Below the pieces are notes generated by a model, which made no database searches, was not told the origin of the DNA, and was given only the letters and a program-made list of their open reading frames with translations. Source: Candidatus Zixiibacteriota bacterium (GTDB lineage: Bacteria > Zixibacteria > MSB-5A5 > SM23-73-2). Taken from it: a stretch of 59,865 bases of DNA. The DNA lies in contig JAUWYR010000011.1 in assembly GCA_030615745.1 (NCBI GenBank), positions 1-59,865 on the forward strand. The letters are read 5' to 3'. The position numbers and the translations under genes are program-made. Of this stretch, positions 25,782-31,154 are shown piece after piece (the stretch's first letter is position 1; each line of letters opens with the position of its first letter).

Positions 25782-26323
25782 AAAAACTCCCCCGGATCAA
25801 TATTTTTACTCTCCAATATCAAATCTATAACCTCTCTGACAGCACCCTCACCACCCTTTGCAGAAGTTATATATTTTGCAAACTTTTTAGCAAAAGGGTT
25901 TGAACCTGAGACCGCAACAGGTAATCCAACCTTTTTTAAAATTGGAACATCCAAAAGATCATCTCCAATAAAACATATCTCAGCATCTTTGACCTTTAAT
26001 TTATTCTTAATTTTTTTATAAGCAACCACTTTTTTTCCAACTCCCAAAAAGATATGTTTTATCTTTAATTCTTTTGCCCTTATTTGAGTCGCTTTGGAGT
26101 TCCTGCCTGATATTAAAGCAACCTCAATACCTGACTTCATAAGGAGATAAATACCCATCCCATCTGAGACATTAAATCTTTTAGCTTCACACCCGTCATC
26201 ATCTATAAAAAGACTATTATCAGTCAAAACCCCATCAACATCCAAGATTAAAAGCTTTATTTTTTTTAAATTCTTTTTTATTCTTTTCAATTTTTCTTTG
26301 CGGAGCATCTCCGTATGGATCAA
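25778..26323 (-). CDS. kdsC: 3-deoxy-D-manno-octulosonate 8-phosphate phosphatase
   Basis: Removes phosphate from KDO-8-P. The 181-aa protein is a HAD-superfamily type C0 phosphatase with motif I LLILDVDGVLTDNS, motif II LISGRNSKAT and motif III CFIGDDLLD. The longest start is a TTG whose bases overlap the kdsA stop (TTGA). An ATG five codons later lies within the palindrome CGGAGATGCTCCG, resembling the palindromes at the starts of mlaD and kdsB. Either start is possible. It is flanked by kdsA and kdsD with overlaps on both sides. Confidence 0.95.
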   Translation of the reverse strand: MIHTEMLRKEKLKRIKKNLKKIKLLILDVDGVLTDNSLFIDDDGCEAKRFNVSDGMGIYLLMKSGIEVALISGRNSKATQIRAKELKIKHIFLGVGKKVVAYKKIKNKLKVKDAEICFIGDDLLDVPILKKVGLPVAVSGSNPFAKKFAKYITSAKGGEGAVREVIDLILESKNIDPGEFL

Positions 26324-27147
26324 GAGATTGACGATAAAAATTCATCTAATTTTTTTATTTGAATCAAAAGCTCTTCGAGTCTTTCCAGAGGGAGCATAGA
26401 TTCTTTGTCGGATAAAGCAGAGCTAACCTCAGGGTGAGTCTCAACAAACAGTCCATCACACCCGCAGGCTAAAGCAGCTCTGGTTAATGGGAGGATAAAC
26501 TGAGGTTCTCCTCCTGAGCATTCATCCTCTCCTCCTGGAAGCTGTAAGCTGTGAGTGACATCGAATATAACTGGATGGCCTGAGCTTCTCATTATAACCA
26601 AAGACCTCATATCAACAACCAAATTATGATACCCGAAAGTGGTTCCCCTTTCAGTTAAAAGTATCTGGGGATTACCCACTGATTCAGCCTTCTCAGCAAT
26701 TTTTTTCATATCCTCAGGAGCCATAAATTGCCCTTTTTTGATATTTAATGGTTTTTTTGTCTTCGCACAAGCTAAAACTAAATCGGTCTGCCTGCACAAA
26801 AATGCAGGTATCTGCAAAACATCTGCCACTTCTGATACAGGCTCTGCTTCAATTGGATTATGAACATCTGTAAGAATTGGAACTTTCAGCTTCTCTTTTA
26901 ATTTCTTGAGGATTTTCAGACCCTCATCCAGCCCCGGACCCATATAGGATTTTATACTTAATCTATTTGCTTTCAAATAAGAGGATTTAAAAATATAAGG
27001 GATGTTGTGTTTTTTGGTTAGCTCAATTATCTTCTCAGCAGTTTGAAAAGCAATTCTTTCTGATTCTAAAACACAGGGACCTGAGATCAAAACCAAAGGG
27101 TTTTTCTCCCCAATTTTAATCTCCCCTACTTTAACTAACCCAGCCAT
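26320..27147 (-). CDS. kdsA: 2-dehydro-3-deoxyphosphooctonate aldolase (KDO-8-P synthase)
   Basis: Condenses PEP with arabinose 5-phosphate. Family landmarks are LISGPCVLES, FKSSYLKANRLS, the PILTDVHNPIEAE stretch, VLQIPAFLCRQTDL and FDVTHSLQLPGG. I place the start at the ATG at 27147 (MAGLVKVGEIKIG), which has an AAAGGA ribosome site 7 nt upstream; the frame remains open for 20 more codons into the preceding GIY-YIG gene. With that start the protein has 275 aa, the normal length. CRQTDL keeps the Cys typical of metal-dependent KdsA enzymes. Confidence 0.96.
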   Translation of the reverse strand: MAGLVKVGEIKIGEKNPLVLISGPCVLESERIAFQTAEKIIELTKKHNIPYIFKSSYLKANRLSIKSYMGPGLDEGLKILKKLKEKLKVPILTDVHNPIEAEPVSEVADVLQIPAFLCRQTDLVLACAKTKKPLNIKKGQFMAPEDMKKIAEKAESVGNPQILLTERGTTFGYHNLVVDMRSLVIMRSSGHPVIFDVTHSLQLPGGEDECSGGEPQFILPLTRAALACGCDGLFVETHPEVSSALSDKESMLPLERLEELLIQIKKLDEFLSSIS

Positions 27148-27197: not shown

Positions 27198-27521
27198 TTA
27201 AGACCATTCACAACCAAGAACAGGGCACCTCCAGTATGTCCCAGGTGGTGCTGCGGGGTGATTAGCATTATTAGGCGGATCATATTTATGATACCATTCA
27301 CATTCTAAATAATAAGCCTGCATTGGAGAGGTCGCGTACTCGAACCAAAAATATTTGTAGTCAGTTCCCTCTGTTAGAGAATTCTTGACACGTGTAGCTA
27401 AATTAGTATCTGATCGGCCGACATAGTGAGCCACTCTGCCATCCTGTGATAAAATATAAACCCCAGGCGAAATCTTCGTTATACGAGAATCAATGTGTGA
27501 AATAGGATATGGACCTTTCAT
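27198..27521 (-). CDS. GIY-YIG domain protein
   Basis: A small (107 aa) protein with a GIY-YIG-nuclease-like core. GVYIL (about 21-25) stands for the GIY strand, YVGRSDTNLATRVKN (38-52) for YIG plus the catalytic Arg helix, and AYYLECEWYHKYDP (70-83) supplies the Glu-bearing helix. The C-terminus is Pro/Trp/Cys-rich (RCPVLGCEW). It starts 2 nt after the stop of an Ntn-hydrolase-like gene, so the two are surely co-transcribed. They split the otherwise standard KDO operon between pyrG and kdsA. DNA- or RNA-cleaving activity is inferred from the fold only. Confidence 0.7.
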   Translation of the reverse strand: MKGPYPISHIDSRITKISPGVYILSQDGRVAHYVGRSDTNLATRVKNSLTEGTDYKYFWFEYATSPMQAYYLECEWYHKYDPPNNANHPAAPPGTYWRCPVLGCEWS

Positions 27522-27523
27522 AT

Positions 27524-28558
27524 CTATATCTTCTTATCCTGTTTTTCTTTTGCTACAAAATAGCCTGCGTGATGATATTCTTCTCTTGACATAAATCGGA
27601 AACCTTCAGCTTTTGTAACAAGTGCAATATGTACTTCCCCACCGACAGTGGGCATCCCATCACTAAATTGTTGTGATTTTATCATAATATTAACGAAAAA
27701 ATCAACGCATTCAATCGCATTCTGTTCAGAGAAATCACCCCAAGTTGCTTGAAAACGATCAAGATCCCATCCATCACTGAACATTTCCAACTTATCTATT
27801 TCCTCGACACTGAGCACGGAGATTTCTATAGAGATATTTTTTTGTTTTAAAAACTCAGTTATTTTGTTTCGATATTGCTTTAACAGTTCTCTGTGACGAT
27901 CACGAATCTTTCCTCTATTTTTGCCATCAGTGCCGAAAACTAATCGTTGAATTTCTTTCATTTGTCCCCCGAAAACTATACCGAACTTTCCTTTTTTTAG
28001 TGTTTCCTTTATCTCCTTTTCGGGTAACTTTATTCGCACAATTGTAGGAATTGGACTCCTTTTGTCATAACCTCCTAAAATAAATTCTAAATCTAGATCT
28101 AGCTTTCTTTTTTCATCAGGATACTCATCTACATAATATTTTGAAATAAAATTCAGAAATTTACTGGCTATACTTTTTACCGCGTAATTTATCGATTTAG
28201 GTTTTGTACGAAAAACGCTTTCTTTGCTCTTGAATTCCTCAATCAAGCTTTTTATAGTGCGGTCTCCAATTGATGCAATACCTGTGGTCATTATACCCAT
28301 TTCTAAGGGCTCAAGAGAGAACAGTTTGGTCATATGAGTCATATGTGTATAAGGTATATGCTTAGACTTTCTATATATACTCCCGAAATCTGTAAGAAGC
28401 GGTTTACCTTTTTTGTCTCTCTTTAATTCAAGTTTTTTTTTAGTATCGAAAAACTCAAGTAAATCAAAGGGGTGTATTAAAAGTTCTGTGGTTGTTCCCA
28501 AGCTATCACAACCAAAAACCAGCGCATCTTTTGTTGCTAATGCGACCAAAGTGGTCAC
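27524..28558 (-). CDS. Proteasome-like Ntn hydrolase family protein
   Basis: 344 aa starting from GTG with a strong GGAAGGAG ribosome site. The N-terminus, Met-Thr-Thr-Leu-Val-Ala, would expose Thr after Met removal. Counting from that Thr, Asp falls at position 17 (FGCDS), as in proteasome beta subunits and HslV. A later MTKLFSL could hold the Lys33 equivalent behind an insertion of about 45 aa. Further matches are GIMTTGIASIGDRTIKSLI, LEFILGGYDKRSP, GIVFGGQ and the C-terminal VGGEVHIALVTKAEGF. This points to a peptidase- or amidase-type fold. It is longer than proteasome, HslV or Anbu subunits and contains a Lys/Arg-rich segment (about 205-245). Substrate and assembly are unknown. Confidence 0.65.
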   Translation of the reverse strand: MTTLVALATKDALVFGCDSLGTTTELLIHPFDLLEFFDTKKKLELKRDKKGKPLLTDFGSIYRKSKHIPYTHMTHMTKLFSLEPLEMGIMTTGIASIGDRTIKSLIEEFKSKESVFRTKPKSINYAVKSIASKFLNFISKYYVDEYPDEKRKLDLDLEFILGGYDKRSPIPTIVRIKLPEKEIKETLKKGKFGIVFGGQMKEIQRLVFGTDGKNRGKIRDRHRELLKQYRNKITEFLKQKNISIEISVLSVEEIDKLEMFSDGWDLDRFQATWGDFSEQNAIECVDFFVNIMIKSQQFSDGMPTVGGEVHIALVTKAEGFRFMSREEYHHAGYFVAKEKQDKKI

Positions 28559-28710
28559 AGTTACTCCTTCCTCATTTTATGAGTTGTTTCTTTCTCGTGA
28601 TTACTTTTTTATTTTCGACTTTCTTAAACTTTATTTGCCTCTTTTTTCTTATAAAACTTATGTAATTACACCCTTAATCAAAAATAAAACCTGATAAAGT
28701 TATTTCAATT

Positions 28711-31154
<2,444 letters not shown>

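Follow-up and report, generated by a model that had tools for sequence, protein, structure and literature searches.

We identified a two-gene module, composed of a putative proteasome-type N-terminal threonine hydrolase and a minimal GIY-YIG protein, which is inserted in a house-keeping operon of a Candidatus Zixiibacteriota bacterium and recurs with the same gene order in unrelated bacteria and in an archaeon. In a genome of Cloacimonadota the pair lies within a type II restriction-modification (R-M) operon. We tentatively favour, at somewhat less than an even chance, its interpretation as a mobile accessory of R-M-linked defence, in which the hydrolase would control the nuclease or its targets.

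The locus

The window, i.e., the whole stretch of 59,865 nucleotides that was analysed (contig JAUWYR010000011.1), encodes the pair between pyrG and kdsA, in a cluster that comprises KDO genes and genes for lipopolysaccharide transport. An earlier note, made from the sequence, had placed it inside the KDO operon. This is correct, as are the coordinates it gave, the GTG start followed by Thr-Thr-Leu-Val-Ala, and the gap of 2 nt between the stop of the hydrolase gene and the start of the GIY-YIG reading frame. The features of the locus are the following:

28711..30399 (-): pyrG, upstream flank of the insertion; kdsA is directly downstream of it in G002, G004, G006 and G008
28559..28710 (-): AT-rich leader (25% GC) between pyrG and the hydrolase gene, from sequence and composition
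27524..28558 (-): hydrolase gene, 344 aa, GTG start; by sequence, a putative proteasome-superfamily N-terminal Thr hydrolase, PMI-like
28553..28555 (-): predicted codon of the catalytic Thr1 (residue 2), from the sequence; invariant in alignment A6
27198..27521 (-): gene of the minimal GIY-YIG nuclease, 107 aa, with a conserved Cys/His tail; motifs kept in four orthologues and a Nocardiopsis protein, model with pLDDT 76, best matches UvrC GIY-YIG 1yd6
26320..27147 (-): kdsA (likely start), downstream flank of the insertion, from homology to relatives

The leader contains a strong ribosome-binding site (GGAAGGAG) ahead of the GTG of the hydrolase gene. Promoter and terminator scans gave no more than chance-level matches. 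The longest kdsA reading frame (from 27207) overlaps the stop of the GIY-YIG gene. Alignments with the KdsA of relatives start near the ATG at 27147, and the gap between the GIY-YIG gene and kdsA is therefore likely to be of ~50 nt.

The GIY-YIG protein

The GIY-YIG superfamily is defined by the GIY and YIG boxes, a central Arg and a C-terminal Glu (PMC1564403). The 107-aa protein is a complete minimal domain of this kind: its GVY and YVG boxes are separated by ten residues, and the superfamily's Arg, Glu and Asn are all present. The residues G20-Y22, Y33-G35, R36, R44, E73 and N87 are kept in the four orthologues and in a protein of a Nocardiopsis plasmid, annotated as GIY-YIG, which is 38% identical to that of the window. 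The AlphaFold model (pLDDT 75.7) has the order strand-strand-helix-strand-helix, and in a structural search its four best PDB matches were all the GIY-YIG domain of UvrC (1yd6), with a probability of up to 0.87 and an E-value of only 0.14. The motifs and the predicted fold bear out the earlier description of the gene as GIY-YIG-like, and the identity of the protein is firmly established.

The protein shares with the UvrC domain the two boxes, the Arg, Glu and Asn, and the predicted topology. It differs from UvrC in being free-standing, with 107 aa and no other domain, and in having a Cys/His tail (NxNHPAxPPGxxWxCPVxGCPWS). Cys74, His78, His88, Cys99 and Cys104 are conserved, and these residues may bind metal.

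The relative on the plasmid of Nocardiopsis flavescens (CP054934.1, L022 5932-8065) is followed by a gene encoding an ATPase of the HSP90/gyrase type, with genes for an HNH endonuclease and a nucleotide pyrophosphohydrolase nearby. Judging from this locus, GIY-YIG proteins of the window type may have other partners too.

The hydrolase

The product of the first gene has the active-site pattern of proteasome beta subunits: Thr1, Asp17, an equivalent of Lys33, and the oxyanion Gly. The window has 40 open reading frames with 150 aa or more, and among these it is the only one with Thr or Ser at position 2 and Asp at position 18. Thr2, Asp18, Lys78 and Gly93 (the same residues in the numbering of the full protein) are invariant in 13 aligned homologues with 22–70% identity (alignment A6); the last three are also invariant in alignment A9. 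The spacing between Thr1 and Asp17 is constant in every member, including two distant ones, L003 and L004, which have in the nucleophile register a Ser (Ser1 in L003) or a Thr (Thr1 behind a signal peptide in L004). Since the four residues are invariant and the spacing is fixed, the pattern is not due to chance. We infer from the sequence that removal of the initiator Met exposes the N-terminal Thr.

Database searches gave a less uniform picture. No meaningful match was found in Pfam, NCBIfam or PDB using either window protein as single query, and the hydrolase had no match in Pfam. With a profile built from six members (A1), the best 24 PDB matches were all proteasome beta subunits, in register from Thr1, with an E-value of 6.6e-4 at best. 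The A8 and A9 profiles matched proteasome beta with E-values of 0.01–0.03, among chance matches, and the A6 profile matched no proteasome in PDB. One or two members of A9 match the Pfam family Proteasome (PF00227, best E-value 1.4e-5). Single-sequence searches of PDB with L003 and L004 did not retrieve any proteasome, and a profile-profile comparison with the local HslV (four sequences) found nothing. The AlphaFold model obtained with 13 sequences was of low confidence (pLDDT 39.6), and the fold search using it returned noise. The proteasome-type Ntn hydrolase proposed in the earlier note, which had pointed to the Asp at 17 from the first Thr and to the stretches FILGGYD (159–165) and GGEVHIALVTK (306–316), all present in the 344-aa protein, is supported by the residue pattern and by weak profile matches. 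Together these partly support membership in the proteasome superfamily, with the alpha-beta-beta-alpha sandwich as a putative fold.

Fuchs, Alva and Lupas (2021, PMC8665760) described 22 new families of proteasome homologues from prokaryotes, and reported no gene context that would point to a function. The window hydrolase fits an uncharacterised homologue of the "PMI" type in its residues and insertion sites. It resembles this group, and especially PMI-5 and PMI-6, in Thr1/Asp17/Lys33 and in having no propeptide (PMC8665760). The distance between Asp17 and the Lys33 equivalent is 60 instead of 16, i.e., ~44 extra residues, and G198-Q279 spans 81 residues compared with 28 in L003, which places ~50 extra residues in the later helical region. 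These additions fit the insertions at S3/S4 and H3/H4 given for PMI-5 and PMI-6 (PMC8665760), with strands and helices placed by register and not from a model. The sections consulted make no mention of a GIY-YIG partner for the PMI group, and the article argues that large insertions may prevent ring stacking. The protein shares the predicted nucleophile and catalytic residues with the 20S proteasome beta subunit, HslV, Anbu and connectase, in addition to the weak profile match to proteasome beta. It differs from them in its large insertions, and no AAA+ gene adjoins its gene in the window. A normal HslV, with HslU, is encoded separately in the genome.

Pairing of the two genes

Close homologues of the hydrolase (59–71% identity) were found at five loci, and at each of them the same GIY-YIG gene lies downstream in the same orientation:

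Window, Zixiibacteriota: pair, 2 nt apart
G006 (L023), Zixiibacteriota metagenome-assembled genome (MAG) of the window genome's order, from a different family: pair
L024, Cloacimonadota MAG: pair split by an IS110 transposase
L025, Euryarchaeota MAG contig (archaeal): pair
L026, unclassified bacterial MAG: both genes frameshifted

The two proteins diverge from those of the window in step, with identities of 70/71, 67.5/73 and 60/54%. The values of dN (~0.19) and dS (~1.5–1.9), computed with NG86, show that both proteins are under purifying selection, and the active-site residues of both are invariant across homologues. In L024 both reading frames remain open on the two sides of the IS110. The frameshifts of L026 may reflect decay or an assembly error. 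The split of L024 and the frameshifts of L026 indicate that the pair is dispensable. The coupling noticed at the window locus is a recurrent one in the close family, which is paired at all five loci; phages and prophages with a distant hydrolase (~25% identity) had no relative of the window GIY-YIG gene in the flanks searched.

Downstream of the GIY-YIG gene, the unrelated genomes of L023 (7386-7520) and L026 (6671-6898) both have a short reading frame (LYKDKFI..VLWNLLGSxFKKHE, ~65% identical).

Mobility

In four genomes of the same order (G002, G004, G006 and G008), pyrG is followed by kdsA without interruption, with aligned ends ~20–30 nt apart, and the window pair adds ~1.5 kb at this junction. 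Since the two flanking genes abut in relatives, the pair was inserted into a house-keeping operon of the window genome, and its earlier description as an acquired module holds. G006 has both the uninterrupted pyrG-kdsA junction and the pair, the latter at another site. The close form is rare: it was found in two of the 133 genomes of the window's phylum and in one of the 125 of Cloacimonadota. The pair is horizontally mobile between unrelated bacteria and an archaeon. A repeat search and inspection revealed neither a recognisable target common to the insertion sites nor flanking repeats of note. Scans of viral contigs gave no matches for the close pair or for the GIY-YIG gene, and phage matches were of the distant hydrolase type only.

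Association with restriction-modification

The gene order at the Cloacimonadota locus (L024) is N6_N4 methyltransferase, hydrolase, IS110, GIY-YIG, DpnII-type restriction enzyme (Pfam E-value 3e-7) and a second methyltransferase, all on one strand except the IS. The restriction enzyme of this operon occurs in 14 of the 125 Cloacimonadota genomes. In all 11 other genomes that were checked the methyltransferase-restriction enzyme junction is empty, with aligned ends from -1 to 30 nt apart. Because the two genes abut in these 11 relatives, the pair of L024 was inserted between the methyltransferase and the restriction enzyme of a type II R-M operon.

In L026, the pair is surrounded by what remains of the same R-M operon. 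Upstream of the hydrolase gene is the terminal portion of the methyltransferase gene seen in L024 (27 aa at 56%, 120 nt at 72.5%). Downstream of the GIY-YIG gene is the initial portion of the L024-type restriction enzyme gene (44 aa at 57%, 109 nt at 75%), with another N6_N4 methyltransferase gene behind it. The arrangement of L024 was therefore once present in another lineage, and has since decayed. The R-M link is based on these two loci, probably with one common history. No remnants of either gene were found beside the pairs of the window and G006, and no R-M genes adjoin the copies of the window, G006 and the archaeon, whose contig ends soon past the pair. Upstream of the archaeal pair (L025) there is a gene for a small XRE-type regulator, whose similarities include R-M control proteins.

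The earlier note had suggested that the pair is possibly a defence or quality-control system. Defence has circumstantial support, in that the pair lies within a type II R-M operon in L024 and among the remnants of the same operon in L026; we found no support for quality control. In PADLOC, the hydrolase had no match and the GIY-YIG protein only a partial one, to the candidate family PDC-S14 (E-value 4e-4).

The Cloacimonadota genome of L024 (G133) has a second copy of the restriction enzyme gene (L070 2451-3155), 87% identical and preceded by a different gene. We considered the latter as an AIPR abortive-infection protein, which is not supported by Pfam. The slot upstream of this restriction enzyme may hold various accessory genes.

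Possible functions of the pair

In the interpretation that we tentatively favour, the hydrolase would be ready once methionine aminopeptidase takes off Met1, and the product of the second gene would be a minimal nuclease cutting invading DNA. Through limited proteolysis, or alternatively peptide ligation, the hydrolase would control this nuclease or the targets of the latter, so that the nuclease does no harm before it is needed or is eliminated after use. The pair would then be an accessory of the host's defence against foreign DNA, able to ride in type II R-M operons. This supposes that both proteins are active enzymes, that they either act on one another or share a pathway, and that defence is the benefit they provide. 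In a more specific form, which we consider unlikely, the pair would be an undescribed type of defence: a proteasome-like Thr enzyme, either a protease or a connectase-like ligase, would directly process, license or tag the GIY-YIG nuclease, so that proteolysis and DNA cleavage would be coupled, and the carriers would include R-M operons. We found no description of a GIY-YIG gene paired with a proteasome homologue, or of the insertion of such a pair in R-M operons, in the literature searched, which had most subscription literature outside it; to this extent the pairing is undescribed, in line with the earlier note, which knew of no such system. If the two proteins do act together, proteasome-type chemistry would be linked to DNA-targeting defence. 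The recurrent partner gene, the mobile distribution and the place within R-M operons provide a concrete lead for one type of proteasome homologue.

The main rival is a selfish homing-like element, in which the GIY-YIG enzyme would drive its own spread into gene junctions with the hydrolase as cargo, requiring no benefit for the host. Homing endonucleases are found among GIY-YIG enzymes (PMC1564403), the insertions at intergenic junctions are clean in several genomes, and the occurrence in the two phyla is patchy. Yet, the 107 aa leave no room for the DNA-recognition region of free-standing homing endonucleases, the insertion sites show neither a common recognisable target nor repeats, and the hydrolase is always present alongside and strongly conserved. 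We regard this explanation, too, as having a rather small chance. Somewhat less likely is a toxin-antitoxin or addiction pair, where a toxic small nuclease would be neutralised by the hydrolase (or the reverse), an arrangement that could explain why the module persists and moves even if it has no direct part in defence. The adjacency of the two genes, with a gap of 2 nt, their co-divergence, their mobility and the R-M genes beside them would suit such a pair; against it, both frames stay open in L024 after an IS split the operon, and a large enzyme encoded first with a small nuclease second is unusual in toxin-antitoxin pairs.

The position of the pair between methyltransferase and restriction enzyme in L024, and that of the remnants in L026, would also fit a control of restriction, the hydrolase degrading or trimming one of these two enzymes and the GIY-YIG protein repairing or removing restriction-damaged DNA. 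ClpXP-mediated restriction alleviation follows a comparable logic. However, the copies of the window and G006 have no adjoining R-M genes, and the 11 related R-M operons do without the pair, so that we hold this role to be improbable, more so than an addiction pair. The least likely explanation, and a very doubtful one, is that the peptidase and the DNA-repair-like nuclease have nothing to do with each other functionally, and are merely hitch-hiking neighbours. Distant hydrolase homologues do occur without this GIY-YIG gene, and the relative on the Nocardiopsis plasmid has other neighbours, but the two genes keep the same order at all five close loci, across phyla and two domains.

Distant relatives of the hydrolase

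Besides the close homologues, which come from an order-level relative of the window genome and from three other MAGs, the hydrolase has homologues in Pseudomonas, Stenotrophomonas, Luteibacter and LESphi2-like phages of Pseudomonas. In temperate phages of Pseudomonas they adjoin the integrase, a usual place for accessory genes. The "proteasome subunit beta" of a LESphi2-like phage (OQ594955.1, P21_63) is 24–25% identical to the window hydrolase over nearly its full length, with the same M-T start and a GCDSL motif; unlike in the window, no relative of the GIY-YIG gene adjoins it, and a reading frame of ~67 aa comes next.

This reading frame, unannotated and overlapping the stop of the hydrolase gene, follows the phage-type hydrolase genes of Pseudomonas (L005 ~1297-1500, L028 7017-7222, L029 7013-7216, L030 7016-7222, L019 6013-6213). 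Its motif is conserved (SGQIGS...CSDRSGxIPSxQD...TFRNGxVEV), and its small product may be a substrate of the hydrolase, or a partner. The related hydrolase from the window genome's genus (L004 437-1336) has a signal peptide that would end directly before Thr1 (SKA|TVNVV), and signal peptidase might thus expose the nucleophile outside the cytoplasm. In L003 (829-1245 and 1456-2271), the related hydrolase with Ser1 has a CPxC-containing insertion and is encoded upstream of a Doc-like toxin gene.
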